Shown here piece by piece: positions 1 through 55,902 of a stretch of DNA of 64,000 nucleotides. Within the stretch, counting starts at the first letter, position 1; each line of letters opens with the position of its first letter. The notes beneath the pieces are model-generated. The model was not told where the DNA came from and ran no database searches. It saw nothing but the letters and a program-made list of their open reading frames with translations. The stretch is from Pelotomaculum schinkii (GTDB lineage Bacteria; Bacillota; Desulfotomaculia; Desulfotomaculales; Pelotomaculaceae): positions 682,001 through 746,000 of the forward strand of contig NZ_QFGA01000001.1 in NCBI RefSeq assembly GCF_004369205.1, read 5' to 3'. Both the position numbers and the translations under genes were made by a program.

Positions 1-255
1 TCCCAGCTAATTTGATATTTAGGTAATTATCTAAATATATTATAATTCACCTGCCACCATGAGTCAATATTCCTCTGGCCCTTTCGAAAACAATAAAGGT
101 CTAATCCGTTATCCTGATACCTGCATGAAACGAGCAACGTGAAAGTGGTATTTGTTTTTTCCCGAACTCTAAAATAGCATTAGAATAGTAGGTAAGATAG
201 CGTTGTATATCGAATTCATATTCATAACGGTCTTTTATGTTTGGAGGCATTATTA

Positions 256-1833
256 TTGGAGACAAAAAAAAGCCATATTGCTTTGATTCAATGGAAAAGC
301 TTTCGTTTAAAAATATTTTTTGAGGGAATTTTGGTCGGTTTATTCGCTGGTATACTGGTCGTGGCGTTTAGGTACCTCTTGGAAAAAGCCGAATTATTGC
401 GCGAACATATCTATACTGTTTTAGAGGTAAACGGCTCTGGGGTCACTTTTTTATGGTTTATTGCGCTAATAATGGTGTCTGTCTGCCTGGGTTTTATTTC
501 CCATATAGTCCCTATGGCCAGCGGAAGCGGCATACCACAGGTAAAAGGTATTATCCTGGGTCACTTCAAGATGGGCTGGCTAAAAATAATCATAGGGAAA
601 TTTCTTGGCGGAGTTCTTGCTATTGGTTCAGGCATGTCGCTGGGACGTGAGGGTCCCTCCATCCAATTGGGAGCTATGGCGGGTCAAGGCGTCAGCCGCC
701 TTTTAGGCAGGTTAAGAATAGAGGAAAAGTATTTAATTACAAGCGGCGCCAGCGCTGGTTTAGCAGCAGCTTTTAATGCGCCGCTCGCTGGAGTAATCTT
801 TGCGCTTGAAGAATTGCACAAAAACTTTTCCCCGGCTGTCTTGATGTCGGCTATGGCAGCATCGCTAACAGCCGATTTAATAACCCAACAAGTCTTCGGC
901 CAAAAACCTGTCTTTAACTTCCATGATCTCGTTGTGTTACCGCATAATTACTACATTTATGTTGTTGGTCTTGGTGTCATCTGCGGGTTTTTGGGCTTTC
1001 TCTTTAACCGGACGCTGACAAAGACAATGGATAGTTACAATAAGATCACCTGGCTGCCAAAAACGTTTATGTCGGCGCCAGCCTTAATACTCGGTGGAAT
1101 ATTGGGCTTTTTCCTGCCTGAAGTTCTGGGGGGAGGAAACAAACTCATCGACTCTGTTGGACAGGCCAGCTATGGGATCGCTATTTTATTAATATTTTTT
1201 ACTGTTAAATTTATATATACCATGATCAGCTACGGTTCCGGCGTACCGGGAGGAATATTCATGCCGATGCTGGTTATCGGAGCGCTGGCCGGAGCTATAT
1301 ATGGCAATATGCTCATAGTCTATTTTCATATTGATCAACATTTCTTTAATAATTTTGTTGTTTTGGCCATGGCTGCTTATTTCACCGCCATTGTCAAGGC
1401 GCCGGTGACCGGCAGTATTCTAATTACTGAAATGACAGGTTCTTTTGACCATTTATTAGCGCTAATCATCGTTTCGGTAACTGCCTATATGGTTAGTGAT
1501 ATCTTAAAAACCGCGCCAATATATGAAACATTATTGGCGCGGTCGCTGGTTAAAAAGAATCACAATATTTACTCCGGTTGGGACAATAAGACCCTGATTG
1601 AAGTTGCCGTATGTCTTGGTTCAAAGCTGGAAGGCAAAAGAATAATGGATATCGCCTGGCCGCCTCACTGCCTGCTGATAAGTATTAAGCGGGGCGAAGC
1701 CGAAATTATCCCCAGGGGAAATACAAAAATCATAGTCGGTGATTATCTATTCGCGCTTGCCAATGAAAATGAATCGGCAGATATAAAAGAAGCATTGTCT
1801 CTCATGGCAGGGACCGCTCAAACCATGGAATAG
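256..1833 (+). CDS. ClC-type chloride/proton antiporter with C-terminal TrkA-C domain
   Basis: Integral membrane anion transporter of the ClC family, about 525 residues. The diagnostic ClC motifs are in order: GSGIPQVKG near residue 90, GREGPSIQLGA near 130 and GVPGGIFMPML near 330. The glutamate of GREGP is the gating glutamate of H+/Cl- exchangers, so exchange rather than a pure channel is likely. The last 80 residues look like a TrkA-C (RCK C) regulatory domain, which in other transporters binds small ligands. An upstream in-frame TTG exists at 241, but its own bases form the Shine-Dalgarno TGGAGG for the TTG at 256, which I take as the start. It converges on the aminomutase gene next door. 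c-di-AMP is known to govern ion and osmolyte balance in Firmicutes, so the pairing with a c-di-AMP-controlled gene may be meaningful. Confidence 0.9.
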   Translation: METKKSHIALIQWKSFRLKIFFEGILVGLFAGILVVAFRYLLEKAELLREHIYTVLEVNGSGVTFLWFIALIMVSVCLGFISHIVPMASGSGIPQVKGIILGHFKMGWLKIIIGKFLGGVLAIGSGMSLGREGPSIQLGAMAGQGVSRLLGRLRIEEKYLITSGASAGLAAAFNAPLAGVIFALEELHKNFSPAVLMSAMAASLTADLITQQVFGQKPVFNFHDLVVLPHNYYIYVVGLGVICGFLGFLFNRTLTKTMDSYNKITWLPKTFMSAPALILGGILGFFLPEVLGGGNKLIDSVGQASYGIAILLIFFTVKFIYTMISYGSGVPGGIFMPMLVIGALAGAIYGNMLIVYFHIDQHFFNNFVVLAMAAYFTAIVKAPVTGSILITEMTGSFDHLLALIIVSVTAYMVSDILKTAPIYETLLARSLVKKNHNIYSGWDNKTLIEVAVCLGSKLEGKRIMDIAWPPHCLLISIKRGEAEIIPRGNTKIIVGDYLFALANENESADIKEALSLMAGTAQTME

Positions 1834-1865
1834 ATAACAATACCGTGCCAGGCGGGTGTAATCAT

Positions 1866-3134
1866 TTATTCTCCTTCGGGCAGGCAACGGTAGTCCAGCA
1901 ACCTGTTTTCCCACGTACGCATCCTTACCTTACCGTCTCCTTGGTTCAGTATATAAGGAGGCATAACAGGAGTTTTTCCGTAACCGTTGGGGGCATTGAT
2001 AATGTATGTCGGGACGGCCAAACCGGAAGTATAGCCGCGCAGTTTTTCCATAACTGCAATACCCTCGTCCACAGACGTAATAAAATGGCGTGTACCCTTT
2101 ACCGCTTTAGCTTGAAAAATATAATAGGGCTTGACCCTTATCTTCAAAAGTTCCTGGTTAAGTTTTTTCATAACGTGCGGGTCGTTGTTTATTCCTTTTA
2201 AAAGAACCGCCTGATTCCCTAAAACCACACCGGCTTCAACTAGTCTATCGCAGGCCTGCTTGCTCTCCGGTGTAATCTCCCGTGGATGGTTAAACTGCGT
2301 ATTAATATAAATTGGGGGATGTTTCTTAAGAACCTCACATAACTCCGGTGTGATTCGCTGCGGCAAAGTGACAATGGTCCTGGTGCCCAGACGCTTTATT
2401 TCCACATGCTTGATATTATCCAGTTCACCCAGCAGCCAGTCTATCTTTCTGTCGCTTAGAAGCAGCGCGTCGCCGCCTGTGATCAGGACATCGCGAATTT
2501 CCTTGTTTTCCCGGATATAGTCCAACGCAGCCATTAGATTCTGATGTGGCTTGTGTTGATCCACCTCGCCGATATTCCTGCGCCTCTGGCAATGGCGGCA
2601 GTACATGGCGCACTGGTTGGTAACGTTGATAATCAACCGGTCCGGATAGCGCCTGGTGACGCACGGCGCTGGGGAAGTGAATTCCTCGGCCATGGGATCG
2701 ACATAACCGGTACTGTCCATCTCATCGATAGAAGGTACCGATTGCATGCGGATCGGGTCGTGGCTGCAGTCTCCTTCCATCAGCGAGGCATAGTAAGGTG
2801 ATATTGCCCATCGATAACGCATCCCCACTCTTCTAATATGAGTGCACTGTTCATCATTAAAGCCAAATAGCCGGGCTAGCGTAAATACATCTTTGATCCG
2901 GTTGGCCATCTGCCAGCGCCAGTCATGCCAGTTTTCTTCGCTGGCGTCGAAATAACCGAGCTGCCTTTCCTTGTTAAAATTAATCATTTCCTGCATATCA
3001 AAACCGGTCTTTATTTCATCTTTTTTTTCCAGATAATCATTAATTCTCTTTTTTAAATCATCCGCCCGTTTAAGCGCAATAGCCTGTTTTTCTTCGTTCG
3101 TAAATTCGAATTTCTCAATAGAAGGTATGGACAT
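1866..3134 (-). CDS. eam: glutamate 2,3-aminomutase (radical SAM, PLP; KamA family)
   Basis: Radical SAM, PLP-dependent aminomutase of the KamA family, about 422 residues. The cluster motif CAMYCRHC supplies C176, C180 and C183. The PLP lysine is K388 in NGYGK. In clostridial lysine 2,3-aminomutase two aspartates (D293, D330) hold the substrate side-chain amine. The aligned positions here are K344 (FQAK) and N381 (IINAPNG), with exactly the same 37-residue spacing and the same 7-residue distance to the PLP lysine. This Lys/Asn pair is the signature reported for glutamate 2,3-aminomutase, so the product is probably beta-glutamate, a known compatible solute. Start ATG at 3134 (GTG 3137 is possible) behind AAGGAG. 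The 5' leader carries a c-di-AMP riboswitch and a terminator. Substrate is inferred from two residues and context. Confidence 0.8.
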   Translation of the reverse strand: MSIPSIEKFEFTNEEKQAIALKRADDLKKRINDYLEKKDEIKTGFDMQEMINFNKERQLGYFDASEENWHDWRWQMANRIKDVFTLARLFGFNDEQCTHIRRVGMRYRWAISPYYASLMEGDCSHDPIRMQSVPSIDEMDSTGYVDPMAEEFTSPAPCVTRRYPDRLIINVTNQCAMYCRHCQRRRNIGEVDQHKPHQNLMAALDYIRENKEIRDVLITGGDALLLSDRKIDWLLGELDNIKHVEIKRLGTRTIVTLPQRITPELCEVLKKHPPIYINTQFNHPREITPESKQACDRLVEAGVVLGNQAVLLKGINNDPHVMKKLNQELLKIRVKPYYIFQAKAVKGTRHFITSVDEGIAVMEKLRGYTSGLAVPTYIINAPNGYGKTPVMPPYILNQGDGKVRMRTWENRLLDYRCLPEGE

Positions 3135-3188
3135 CACAAGTATCTCCTTTCAAATTTTATTTGTAATGCAAGAAATAAAGTGCAGAAA

Positions 3189-3213
3189 ACCCCCGGAGCA
3201 TACGTCCGGGGGT
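3189..3213 (-). terminator. expression-platform terminator of the c-di-AMP riboswitch
   Basis: Perfect 8-bp stem CCCCCGGA/TCCGGGGG with a 7-nt loop, followed on the minus strand by TTTTCTGC. It lies between the riboswitch aptamer and the aminomutase start, as expected for a ligand-induced OFF switch. Confidence 0.8.
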
Positions 3214-3242
3214 TAAAAGAGGTCAAGCAAGTCAAAGGCTGG

Positions 3243-3408
3243 TTGTAGACCGCCTGTTTCCTCCCTTTCAACGCTTACGAAGTTAGCTGACGGATTCGGG
3301 CCGAAAGAGTAGCCCTACGATGCCGACAACACGTTGGAGTCTGGTCGAGCACCGATTCACCCCGTAAATTGGTTCCCCCGCTTCTTTTTATGAAGAATTA
3401 AGCGAATT
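3243..3408 (-). promoter_or_regulatory. c-di-AMP riboswitch (ydaO/yuaA type)
   Basis: Read on the minus strand, the conserved ydaO-yuaA blocks appear in order: GCGGGGGAACC, then GGGTGAATCGGTG, then GTAGGGCTACTCTTTCGGCC, then CGAATCCGTCAGCTAAC, TTCGTAAGCGTTG and AAAGGGAGG. These match the Bacillus subtilis ydaO aptamer closely in sequence and spacing. A terminator hairpin and then the aminomutase gene follow. The family binds c-di-AMP and normally turns expression off when the second messenger is high (low turgor demand). Boundaries are approximate. Confidence 0.93.
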
Positions 3409-3955
3409 AGGAGCAATATTAAATTCAAGATATACTGACAACAGACAACTTATATCATTCAATAAGGTTGCCTGTTGTCAGTATATCATAATAAATTTTC
3501 CAGGTCAATCTTATATTGACGTTCTTATATTGACGTTCTATTAATAATTAACCCCAGTGGTGCAATCAAGGCTGATATAATCACCATGGAACTATAAGAA
3601 ATAGTTGCTGCTCCCCCAAAAAAATTATATTATTGCAGCTATTCCCCAAACTCCATACATGCCTCCCGGTCATAAGTTCCGAACCGGCATTGATACAATG
3701 AAGGAGTCTTAATAACTGTTAGACATGCTCTGAATTATACATACCCTCCTTTGTAAAAGCCAGGCGCCATCATAAATTTGGGAATCTTTTGTTTAATCAG
3801 GCGATTTGCTATATTGACCAAGTAATCTAACTATGATATCATAAAACAACCAACAACTTGATTATATTAATAAAGTTGTCTGTTATTGTGTGTCACGCTA
3901 ACTATTTTTCCCCATTGCAAGTCAAAGTAAGGTGAAATTCATAAAATTTTAGAAT
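3409..3955. other. intergenic region with MITE-like hairpins and a decayed reading frame
   Basis: No intact gene. A strong inverted repeat lies at 3429-3487 (arms about 23 nt around GACAACAGACAACTT). A related but weaker one lies at 3843-3895 and ends in AAGTTGTCTGTTATTGT, so the outer ends of the two are inverted copies of each other. A 14-bp tandem duplication (CTTATATTGACGTT) sits at 3510-3537. Between them, minus-strand bases 3541-3660 can be read with one frameshift as a short hydrophobic, permease-like stretch (for example GGAATISYSSMVIISALIAP), probably a gene remnant. The whole could be a small degenerate transposable element, but no target duplication is clear. Confidence 0.4.
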
Positions 3956-3961
3956 GTAATC

Positions 3962-4075
3962 GGGATATCCCCTGGTTATTTAAAGCTTATATCAAGTCAA
4001 GGCAGAATAGGTTAGCAAAACAAGCTAAAGCCAGTTTGCCAAAGTCCCAGGGATATTCCTGGGTTTTATGTTTTA
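3962..4075 (+). promoter_or_regulatory. structured leader with attenuator, upstream of amino acid ABC transporter
   Basis: A terminator stem CCCAGG/CCTGGG (4046-4063) followed by TTTTATGTTTT lies 75 bp before the first gene of the transporter operon. The segment ATATCCCCTGG at 3965-3975 can pair with CCAGGGATAT at 4047-4056, which would break the terminator. In between is a hairpin GGTTAGC/GCTAAAGCC at about 4012-4032. This is the architecture of a transcription attenuator. It does not match any riboswitch class I can name. Confidence 0.5.
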
Positions 4076-4149: not shown

Positions 4150-4938
4150 ATGATACGGAAAACCCTGTTACACGCGATTCTGGTGGCCATGCTGGTATTC
4201 GCCGTGGCCGGCTGCGGCGGATCTAAAGAAAGCGAAAATCCAACTACCGGCGAGCAGGTTAAAGAAACATTCAGTTGGTCCTGTTCCGGCCAATACCGCC
4301 CGTTTAACTATTATGACGAAGGCAATAACCTGACCGGCTTCGACGTGGAAATCGGCAAAGCCCTGGCTGAAAAAATGGGCCTGGAGCCAACACCTGTTAC
4401 GGCGCCATGGGACAGCCTGATTAACGGACTGCAGGCCAAGCGGTATGACGCCATTCTAGGCAGTATGACTATAACCGAGGATAGAAAGCAACAGGTCGAT
4501 TTCTCAGACCCCTATTACGTTTCCGGAGGCCAGCTCTTTGTCTATAAGGAATCTGGGATAAAAAGCGTAGCAGACCTAAAGAAAGATACCAAGATCGGCG
4601 TGCTCACCACGAGTACTTATGACGAAGAAGCAAGAAAATATTCACAAAATATTATTAACTACTCAAGTGACGAGACTGCTCTGCGTGACCTTGACGCCGG
4701 CCGCTTGCAGGCTGTCATCACCGACCGCTTTGTCGGCAAACTTGCCATAGATGAGACCGGACTGAAAAACATCGAAATGGTCGGAGACCTCCTGTTCGTG
4801 GAGGAAATCGGTATTGCCTTCCGCCAGGAGGATGACACTTTGAGGGAAAAAGTAAACAATGCCCTTAAGGAAATTAAGCAAGACGGTACTTATCTGGAAA
4901 TCAGTAAAAAGTATTTTGATCAAGACATCAGTAAATAA
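4150..4938 (+). CDS. polar amino acid ABC transporter, substrate-binding lipoprotein
   Basis: Extracellular solute-binding protein, 262 residues, family SBP_bac_3 (GlnH/HisJ/ArtJ type). The N-terminus is a lipoprotein signal ending in VAGCG, so it would be lipid-anchored at the cysteine near residue 22. The stretch GQYRPFNYYDEGNNLTGFD, then EIGKALAEKMG, and the central ILGSMTITEDRKQQVDFSDP are typical of the ligand-binding fold. First gene of a three-gene import operon (binding protein, permease, ATPase). Substrate cannot be fixed from sequence; glutamine, arginine or cystine are all possible. SD GGAGGCG lies before the ATG. Confidence 0.9.
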   Translation: MIRKTLLHAILVAMLVFAVAGCGGSKESENPTTGEQVKETFSWSCSGQYRPFNYYDEGNNLTGFDVEIGKALAEKMGLEPTPVTAPWDSLINGLQAKRYDAILGSMTITEDRKQQVDFSDPYYVSGGQLFVYKESGIKSVADLKKDTKIGVLTTSTYDEEARKYSQNIINYSSDETALRDLDAGRLQAVITDRFVGKLAIDETGLKNIEMVGDLLFVEEIGIAFRQEDDTLREKVNNALKEIKQDGTYLEISKKYFDQDISK

Positions 4939-4956
4939 AAGGTTAGACAACCTTTT
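4937..4956 (+). terminator. intra-operon stem-loop after the binding-protein gene
   Basis: Perfect hairpin AAAAGGTT-AGAC-AACCTTTT overlapping the stop codon and followed by ATTCTT. Such hairpins after binding-protein genes usually stabilise the upstream transcript or partly terminate, giving more binding protein than permease. Confidence 0.5.
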
Positions 4957-5046
4957 ATTCTTATATTGCCGGCATGCTATTCATACTAGAGGGAGGGGAC
5001 ACGCCCAGGCGGGTTCCCCTTCCCTAGAAAGTTGGGGGGTGTTGAC

Positions 5047-5700
5047 TTGCATTTCTTATCCGATCTGATAACCTACGGACCGTTTTTTTTCAAGGCCATG
5101 CAGGTTACGGTACTGCTGACAGCCGCTTCAATAACTATAGGTATGGCCATCGGTCTGTTGTTTGCCCTCCTCAAAATTTCCAAGCGAAAATTATTTAACC
5201 GTATTGCGGATATTTATATAGGTTTAATCAGGGGTACACCTCTAATTGTACAGCTTTTCTTCGTTTATTTTGGCCTGGCTGAGATTGTGGACTTCGGCCA
5301 GTTTTGGTCGGCCTCAATTGCCCTGGCGGTTCACAGCGGCGCTTACATTGCGGAAATATTCCGGGCCGGCATACAGTCCATAGATCGCGGCCAGATGGAA
5401 GCGGCTCGCTCACTGGGTATGAGTTATCCGCTCGCCATGCGCCGGATCATCCTGCCTCAGGCATTTAAGCGCGTTATCCCACCACTTGGCAATCAGTTTA
5501 TCATTGGGCTCAAAGACTCCTCTCTGGCAGCCTTTATCGCCATGGATGAACTATTTCACCTGGCACAGAGGTTTGCAGCTTCTACCTTCCGTTCAATGGA
5601 ATTTTATGCCATGGGTGGTCTCTACTACCTGTTTCTGATTACTATTTTCACTTTAGCTGTTAATGCCCTTGAACGGCGTCTTAAAGTAGATGAAATTTAA
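5047..5700 (+). CDS. polar amino acid ABC transporter permease
   Basis: Inner-membrane permease of the His/Glu/Gln/Arg family, about 217 residues with five predicted membrane spans. The EAA loop that docks the ATPase is clear: [20 protein letters not shown], followed by the conserved [13 protein letters not shown]. The TTG at 5047 is preferred over the in-frame TTG at 5032 because the GGGGGGT at 5034-5040 is then a properly spaced ribosome-binding site. It probably works as a homodimer with the flanking binding protein and ATPase. Confidence 0.9.
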
Positions 5701-5714
5701 AGGAGGTGTTTTAT

Positions 5715-6530
5715 TTGATAAAAATTAAAAACCTCAACAAACATTTTGGCTCCCTGCATGTACTACGTGACATTGACCTCAATGTGGGGAAAAGCGATGT
5801 GGTTGTTATCATCGGCGCCAGTGGCTCGGGAAAAAGCACTCTATTGCGCTGTATTAATCTCCTTGAGGAACCCAGCAGCGGAGAAATATGGATTGAAGGA
5901 AATATAGTGGACCGTCGCAAAAAAAACCGACTTAACATCCTGCGCCGGGATGTAGGGATGGTCTTTCAGCACTTTAACCTGTTTCCCCATTTTACCGTGC
6001 TTGGTAATATTACCGAAGCGCCTGTGCAAGTCCGCCAAGTGGATAAACAGCAAGCATATGAGAGCGCCATGGCATTGCTGGAAAAAGTAGGCTTGACTGA
6101 TAAGGCCCATGCCTACCCATCTCAACTGTCAGGCGGCCAGAAACAGCGGGTGGCTATTGCCCGGGCCCTGGCTATGAAACCCAAGGTTATGCTGTTTGAC
6201 GAACCGACTTCGGCCCTTGACCCCGAACTGGTGGGAGAGGTATTGGCGGTGATGAAGCAGCTTGCCGCCGAGGGCATGACCATGATTGTGGTATCCCATG
6301 AAATGGCCTTTGCCAGGGAGGTAGGCGATTGGTTGGTTTACATGGATGAAGGTAAAATTGTGGAAGTCGGGCGCCCGGAACAGATTTTCGAGGAACCCCG
6401 TCACGAACGGACAAAAACTTTCTTAAGCAGGGTTAGAGAACCGAACAATTTTAGGAAGAGAGAGCCCCGGCTTTTCACTCCCCGGACAGGTAAAGGAGAA
6501 AACCGGGGACTGGCCACAGACGCAGTTTAA
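5715..6530 (+). CDS. polar amino acid ABC transporter ATP-binding protein
   Basis: Cytoplasmic ATPase of the GlnQ/HisP class, about 271 residues. Walker [11 protein letters not shown]-loop [10 protein letters not shown], signature [15 protein letters not shown], Walker [15 protein letters not shown] and the H-loop [11 protein letters not shown] are all intact. The start is TTG at 5715, 7 bases after AAGGAGGTG. An upstream GTG at 5706 lies inside that SD. The protein carries a basic C-terminal tail of about 30 residues beyond the usual family end, of unknown role. Last gene of the operon. Confidence 0.92.
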
Positions 6531-19297: not shown

Positions 19298-19565
19298 ATA
19301 AAAACACCTGCCCTCTGAATAAGGACAGGTGTAATAACCTGCGGTGCCACCTTGATTGATGCATTGAAACTCCATTTCAATGCATCCTCTTTTGCAGGGC
19401 GCCAACACACCCCTCACCAATAACGCCGGCTGCGCGTCGTAAGCTACTAAACTTTCACTCCGCCCTCAGAGGCCCATTTGTCTGCCCCAATGCCTGCCAG
19501 GTTTCCATCATCCCCGGCTCTCTATAAAGCTGGTTTGCAGTTTTACTCCCTCTTCATAGGTTTAA
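19298..19565 (-). promoter_or_regulatory. T-box riboswitch leader of the ABC transporter operon
   Basis: On the minus strand the T-box core AAGGTGGCACCGC lies at 19353-19341. The terminator ACACCTG/CAGGTGT followed by TTTTTA lies at about 19330-19300. Stem I features precede it: an AGTA bulge (GGGAGTAAAACTG) and an AG-bulge/apical region around AGAGAGCCGGGGATGATGG. Uncharged tRNA would stabilise the antiterminator. I could not place the specifier loop with certainty. A TGG triplet at 19476-19474 is a candidate and would mean tryptophan, in line with the transporter family. Confidence 0.92.
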
Positions 19566-19633
19566 TGGAATAATACCATATGAAAAATACACCGTCAACT
19601 GCTTTTACAGACTATGATAATACTAAAACCGTC

Positions 19634-55521: not shown

Positions 55522-55534
55522 CCGTCATTGACGT

Positions 55535-55902
55535 GTGAGTAAATCGATAAGCCGGGTTCTGTCTTGAGTGATCATCTATCTAGGACGACTGTTTCCAGCC
55601 GCCTCAAGCGACCTTACCCGGGAACGGGACGGGCCGTCCCTATGTTCCTCTATTCGGTCTTGCTCCAGGTGGGGTTTACCTAGCCGGCCGGTCGCCCGGC
55701 CGCTGGTGCGCTCTTACCGCACCGTTCCATCCTTGCCTCACACCGGAAGGTCAAACCTTCCGGCGGGCGGTCTGCATTTCTGTGGCACTTTCCTTGGGGT
55801 CGCCCCCACTGGGAGTTACCCAGCACCCTGCCCTGCGGAGCCCGGACTTTCCTCAGGCGCCACCTTTCGGCCTTGCGCCCGCGACCACCTGATTTACTCA
55901 CT
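55535..55902 (-). ncRNA. rnpB: RNase P RNA, bacterial class A
   Basis: The catalytic RNA of tRNA 5' processing. The 5' strand begins GTGAGTAAATCAGGTGGTCG, which pairs as P1 with the 3' end GATTTACTCAC. The conserved core GAGGAAAGTCCGGGCTCC, the CAGGGTGCTGGGTAACTCCC region, the universally conserved AGACCG-type P8/P10 area, and CTGGAAACAGTCGTCCTAG, then ACAGAACCCGGCTTATCGA at the end, are all present. Open reading frames on both strands inside it are not genes. Followed by its own terminator. Confidence 0.97.

Follow-up and report, generated by a model that had tools for sequence, protein, structure and literature searches.

We analyzed a 64,000-nucleotide stretch of the Pelotomaculum schinkii genome (the window), which contains a gene of the KamA family of radical SAM/PLP enzymes, eam, behind a leader with a c-di-AMP riboswitch aptamer. 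The features of the locus, in window positions, are as follows.

241-1833, plus strand: ClC-type chloride transporter with a C-terminal TrkA_C (RCK_C) domain (PF00654, 340.3 bits; PF02080, 43.5 bits)
1866-3134, minus strand: eam, predicted glutamate 2,3-aminomutase gene, KamA-family radical SAM/PLP enzyme (TIGR04368)
3144-3149, minus strand: ribosome-binding site AAGGAG, read from the sequence
about 3182-3212, minus strand: terminator-like hairpin, expression platform (CCCCCGG...CCGGGGG followed by UUUUCUGC)
3256-3414, minus strand: c-di-AMP (ydaO/yuaA) riboswitch aptamer (RF00379, 98.2 bits, full length)
3440-3476, no strand assigned: 37-bp palindrome AACARRCAACYT-N13-ARRTTGYYTGTT, candidate operator, following immediately on the candidate -10 box of eam
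3480-3508, minus strand: candidate promoter TTGACC-17-TATACT with TG before the -10 box (consensus scan, 10 of 12)
3848-3884, no strand assigned: second copy of the palindrome with one mismatch, after TTGACC-17-TATCAT, a candidate promoter of the divergent ABC transporter
4150-6530, plus strand: polar amino-acid type ABC transporter operon, by family matches (binding protein 4150-4938; permease 5032-5700; ATPase 5706-6530)

Along the minus strand the order is thus candidate promoter, palindrome, aptamer, hairpin, ribosome-binding site and eam. The consensus scan that returned the promoter gave, as a whole, no more matches than shuffled sequences. None of the matches shown for the ABC transporter was an NCBIfam equivalog above its cut-off; its leader has a terminator-like hairpin at 4046-4063 and no convincing Rfam match.

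The eam reading frame extends from an ATG at 3134 to a stop codon at 1866. An alternative GTG start is present at 3137; the ATG is the likelier start because a sister species (L007) has TAA at the position of this GTG. The window protein scored 712 bits with the NCBI model for glutamate 2,3-aminomutase (TIGR04368, equivalog cut-off 650) and fell below the cut-offs of the models for lysine 2,3-aminomutase (TIGR03820, 462.7 bits versus 525.4) and arginine aminomutase. The CxxxCxxC cysteines (C176, C180 and C183) and the PLP lysine (K388) are present, all residues being numbered from the GTG start. The sole solved relative detected by phmmer was lysine 2,3-aminomutase 2a5h, and alignment to this protein placed K344 and N381 of the window enzyme in the columns of its Asp293 and Asp330, the two Asp residues by which that enzyme binds lysine. 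These two positions presumably determine substrate choice, and we take Lys/Asn, as opposed to Asp/Asp, to be diagnostic for glutamate 2,3-aminomutase, the enzyme on which Ruzicka and Frey are said to have reported in 2007. When the window protein was compared with 80 relatives (the best 80 of 314), Lys was found in the first column in all 81 proteins and Asn in the second in 80, the exception (L079) having Ser, whereas AblA of the same genome has Asp in both. The PLP lysine was conserved in 80 of these 81 proteins. The exception, L064, has Gln in this column; its match is cut short where its sequence ends, and the substitution may be an alignment end effect. The above-cut-off equivalog score and the Lys/Asn positions, both shared with glutamate 2,3-aminomutase, bear out the initial annotation of a glutamate-type KamA enzyme, and we refer to the window protein as a predicted glutamate 2,3-aminomutase. 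A second KamA gene adjoins eam in two of the best 80 of 314 relatives (L018 and L019) and in genome G029.

The aptamer matched the Rfam model RF00379 with 98.2 bits (gathering score 38; E 4.8e-22 for the 64-kb window) over model positions 1-134 of 134, with one non-standard pair marked. Its conserved core nucleotides are present in the alignment to the Rfam consensus; our own alignment of 27 aptamers contains the window aptamer and is therefore no independent test of its core. The hairpin downstream has a predicted stability of -15.6 kcal/mol (-18.7 for a longer piece). It was not listed by a consensus terminator scan, probably because its loop is long or bulged. A ydaO-type aptamer and a terminator in the leader of a KamA-family gene, as originally described, are thus both found; the range given, 1866-3408, misses the first six bases of the aptamer. 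A full-length aptamer followed by a separate terminator-like hairpin is a feature shared with the RF00379 riboswitch class; the target of this predicted member is eam.

The hairpin and its U-run lie 3′ of the aptamer, as in an OFF-type expression platform. The ligand-free minimum-energy fold of the leader still contains the terminator, and folds of truncated leaders gave alternative pairings with no unique antiterminator among them. For this reason we infer the OFF direction by analogy with the ablA leader of Dehalobacter sp. CF, in which a tandem Na+/c-di-AMP riboswitch precedes a lysine 2,3-aminomutase gene and c-di-AMP has been demonstrated to terminate transcription (PMC9337991). At both loci a c-di-AMP aptamer and a terminator precede an aminomutase gene of the KamA family, whereas the window locus encodes a glutamate-type enzyme and gave no match to the Na+ aptamer model (RF03071) between 2900 and 4200 at E values up to 5. 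A remnant of a Na+ riboswitch 5′ of the window aptamer was also considered and none was detected at the same threshold; weak micro-RNA matches in this segment coincided with the palindrome and were taken as chance.

We propose that the region before eam exerts osmotic control at two levels on a putative beta-glutamate-making enzyme, and that low c-di-AMP allows read-through and beta-glutamate is made; we give this reading a probability of about three in four. Transcription of eam would start beside the palindrome, which is probably bound by an osmoregulatory DNA-binding protein, and the nascent leader would fold the c-di-AMP aptamer. At high c-di-AMP, when there is no osmotic need, ligand binding to the aptamer would free the downstream hairpin and transcription would stop; at low c-di-AMP, under hyperosmotic stress, the leader would be read through into eam, whose product may convert L-glutamate to beta-glutamate, a compatible solute. 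If true, c-di-AMP, a messenger best known for restraining osmolyte and potassium transport, acts on the synthesis of a beta-amino-acid osmolyte, and lower c-di-AMP should raise beta-glutamate. Osmoprotectant synthesis was reportedly among the c-di-AMP riboswitch targets described by Nelson et al. in 2013. The c-di-AMP system itself is present: two domains encoded in the genome are diadenylate cyclases and a third is of the 7TMR-HDED (PgpH) type.

The initial annotation presented this control as a direct osmolyte-synthesis target of c-di-AMP. This is less new than it implied, since PMC9337991 already contains the ablA tandem and names eam, together with dapB and ablA, as a target of Na+ riboswitches. 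In our literature search on c-di-AMP and aminomutases this paper alone bore on the question, and eam may stand in published riboswitch lists; we take the pairing of a c-di-AMP aptamer with eam to be new or unlisted. A route to beta-glutamate through a glutamate aminomutase was ruled out by early NMR studies of methanogens (PMC1224877), so this enzyme is not the only route to the compound.

The initial annotation had also suggested a survey of riboswitch-aminomutase pairs, and the pairing indeed recurs. Proteins above the glutamate 2,3-aminomutase (EAM) cut-off occurred in 68 of 94 genomes of the class. Aptamers were searched in 23 genomes, namely the genome of the window and 22 EAM-bearing genomes chosen by us. 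An aptamer was located 48-333 nt upstream, on the same strand, of 19 of their 24 EAM genes, the others being those of G012, G015, G018 and G019 and a second copy in G029. By comparison, an upstream aptamer was found for three of the 19 KamA paralogues with lower scores (430-530 bits), which are presumably of the lysine type; in G029 a further such paralogue lies directly behind the aptamer-bearing EAM gene. These 23 genomes contain 82 aptamers above cut-off (one further match, below cut-off, was dropped), and 19 of the 82 belong to eam.

A similar pattern was observed in the named relatives (the best 80 of 314), of which 75 have more than 300 nt of upstream sequence. With our own 27-aptamer model, an aptamer was detected in 50 of the 75, including L048, in which a contig end leaves only the end of the aptamer; the same applies to L024 and L043, two of the five loci with short upstream sequence. 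Because 22 of the 27 training aptamers came from eam-type loci, Rfam's own model serves as the independent check: of 43 loci searched with RF00379, 35 have an aptamer ahead of the gene, and L043 is among the misses. The 25 of these 75 relatives that lack an aptamer are mostly more distant and include L019, L023 and L031. Among 29 further loci from the class search, 15 had a full aptamer and one a cut aptamer. The named loci and class genomes are partly the same records and the sets therefore overlap; overall, between a fifth and a third of the examined relatives are without an aptamer. Of the 50 leaders with an aptamer, 35 have a terminator-like hairpin with a U-run between aptamer and gene, compared to 8 of 150 mononucleotide shuffles. 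Seven of the 50 have fewer than 60 nt between aptamer and gene and no passing hairpin, which would fit control at the ribosome-binding site, and eight have neither hairpin nor short gap. As judged from sequence comparison, recurrence of this pattern supports a putative role of eam in salt stress.

Three of the 43 loci searched with Rfam models (L008, L013 and L018) have a Na+ aptamer ahead of the c-di-AMP aptamer of eam, the order of the published A-and-not-B arrangement; five Na+/c-di-AMP tandems are tabulated in PMC9481103. Locus L008 has an additional aptamer before a divergent dapB-like gene.

Within the 4.4-Mb genome of the window we detected six aptamers and two KamA genes (E up to 0.001), and both KamA genes lie directly behind an aptamer. 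The second, ablA, had been missed in the initial annotation. It is followed by ablB, and both scored above the cut-offs of their models (TIGR03820, 646.9 bits versus 525.4; TIGR03827, 262.8 versus 205.1). The five aptamers other than that of eam precede dapB (140.9 bits, cut-off 122), ablA-ablB, two CAP-domain genes and a LysM/cell-wall hydrolase gene. As three of these targets are of cell-wall type, c-di-AMP control might represent cell-envelope homeostasis, and beta-glutamate might serve redox or light stress, nitrogen storage or as a building block. Such a role would also fit the transcriptome of Moorella thermoacetica, in which eam was among the genes most induced under blue light (PMC7835215). 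Its authors read osmoprotection from this response, which speaks for the osmotic reading; that the stimulus was light, not salt, speaks against it. A c-di-AMP aptamer precedes eam in M. thermoacetica DSM 21394 (L046), possibly another strain than that of the transcriptome, and eam of Desulforamulus putei has one as well. We consider this explanation unlikely: the targets of aptamer and palindrome include dapB, ablA-ablB and glycine-betaine transport, and no co-directional biosynthetic partner gene (e.g., for beta-glutamine) adjoins eam in the window.

The ClC-type transporter, which the initial annotation cited in support of the osmotic theme, is real. However, its gene is convergent with eam, and a ClC relative was found beside the aminomutase gene at only one (L007) of 80 loci (best 80 of 314; some loci are short). 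We rejected this neighbour as general evidence, and its TrkA_C domain is suggestive only. The riboswitch class, the enzyme family, the terminator-bearing leader and a comparative link to osmolyte genes are supported by computation, and the ClC gene is weak support.

The palindrome, common to eam, dapB and the amino-acid transporter, had likewise escaped the initial annotation. Its pattern was drawn from the window and L007, so the absence of mismatches at 3440-3476 follows from construction. Allowing three mismatches, the genome has three sites and none for the reversed pattern. Two are those at eam and at the divergent amino-acid ABC transporter; the third immediately precedes the aptamer of dapB. 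In the 94 genomes of the class, forward and reverse counts were 41 and 37, versus 6 and 7 for the reversed pattern, and 44 distinct sites were listed, some of which are expected by chance according to this control. For 13 of the 44, a KamA gene follows at a distance of 25-432 nt, an EAM gene in eight cases and a lower-scoring one in five; when the genome of the window and its sister G084 were removed, the fraction was 11 of 40. The eight sites with at most two mismatches are found beside eam (three), dapB (two), an ablA-type gene, the gene of an OpuAC glycine-betaine binding protein and the amino-acid transporter of the window. In G083, a c-di-AMP aptamer is present between the palindrome and dapB. 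The single intergenic region concerned (L153) carries a Na+ aptamer (1572-1628, minus strand), the c-di-AMP aptamer before dapB (1863-2097, plus strand) and the palindrome.

Among the three-mismatch sites examined, five were before M23/G5 peptidase genes (L133, L139, L140, L142 and L146), one precedes an MttB-type methyltransferase gene, and one (L126) precedes the gene of a CBS-bearing ABC ATPase (1657-2784) with an in-frame stop, either a pseudogene or a sequencing error. Four sites fell within genes or at gene ends (L136, L137, L138 and L147), that of L136 being inside a MerR-like gene, and others, such as L125, L135 and L148, were beside genes with no evident osmotic role. The neighbours of about ten of the 44 sites were covered only where they are KamA genes. 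None of the downstream genes of 18 loci was recognized as a regulator gene controlled by the palindrome.

In eam leaders of the named relatives, the palindrome (up to five mismatches) was found in seven of 75 (best 80 of 314), compared to about 0.1 expected in shuffles and none for the reversed pattern. As only seven leaders contain it, it appears to accompany the aptamer in a limited set of lineages. The palindrome occurs without an aptamer at six distinct eam genes, three with the 13-base spacer (G010, L068/L110; G012, L107; G013, L109) and three with a 12-base spacer (G011, L071/L113; G017, L089; G020, L096). Except for the last three sites, the 12-base form was near the reversed-pattern background in the 94 genomes. 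A narrow literature search found no trace of the palindrome, which is apparently undescribed.

Judged by its positions and targets, the palindrome looks like a DNA operator of an osmoregulator. A hexamer resembling a -10 box was found within 18 nt before it at 13 of 21 sites checked, a count made without a shuffle control. This placement suits a repressor site over the transcription start, but it suits RNA equally, since the palindrome could then form the 5′ end of the transcript, as a stem-loop that stabilizes the RNA or senses a signal by itself with no protein operator involved. The arms speak against such a hairpin. At 28 sites, selected by us for their position before genes, combinations of G-U and of A-C were equally common on the transcribed strand (22 each), whereas an RNA stem would favour G-U. 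In addition, two sites with five mismatches (L021 and L022) contain a TATAAT box within the spacer, which would leave the left arm untranscribed. Both observations favour an operator in duplex DNA, and an RNA stem-loop seems quite improbable to us.

Another candidate reader of the palindrome is a c-di-AMP-sensing repressor of the BusR type, through which the messenger would act on eam at initiation as well as termination. BusR represses a glycine-betaine transporter from GAC-N22-GTC sites (PMC8517857), and the sites described here resemble its operator in their inverted GAC/GTC half-sites about 22 bp apart and in having osmolyte genes among their targets; one of the sites precedes an OpuAC gene. 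The consensus of the main form is however GAC-N23-GTC, one base longer than the BusR rule; N22 is found in the 12-base-spacer form. Moreover, none of the nine GntR and three TrkA_C places in the genome of the window (E up to 0.001) coincide, so that a BusR-type GntR-TrkA_C (RCK_C) fusion was not detected there, and a regulator of this type appears unlikely. Elsewhere in this genome (G000:C2:717.6k, L154), a gene for a TrkA_C-domain protein is followed by a CPA2-type cation/proton antiporter gene, an arrangement that we take to resemble the KhtT/KhtU pair.

The eam leader is also closely related to a second leader of the same genome. A near-copy of its promoter, palindrome, aptamer and terminator precedes dapB (G000:C4:281344-281558; L001, L124), with a promoter similar to the candidate promoter of eam. 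From promoter to terminator, the two leaders are 84.8% identical over 336 alignment columns, whereas the eam leaders of the window and of the sister species L007 are 76.8% identical over 400 columns. The enzymes encoded by eam and dapB are unrelated. Promoter, palindrome, riboswitch and terminator thus seem to have moved as one unit between the two genes.

The palindrome links eam to dapB, ablA-type and OpuAC genes. On balance, and with limited confidence, we lean towards an undescribed osmolyte regulon of Desulfotomaculum-type anaerobes with its own 37-bp operator and a putative regulator. Its members would be eam, ablA and dapB, together with genes for glycine-betaine uptake, an amino-acid transporter and M23 cell-wall peptidases, a set that matches in kind the targets of c-di-AMP riboswitches. 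At eam and dapB, an initiation gate would be followed by a c-di-AMP termination gate, the whole promoter-operator-riboswitch-terminator module having been copied between them in this genome. The shared palindrome would then offer a way to find a putative osmoregulator in these experimentally difficult anaerobes.

Two other structured RNAs, both ordinary, were detected on the minus strand of the window: a T-box leader just above cut-off (19318-19566) and the RNase P RNA (55532-55900).
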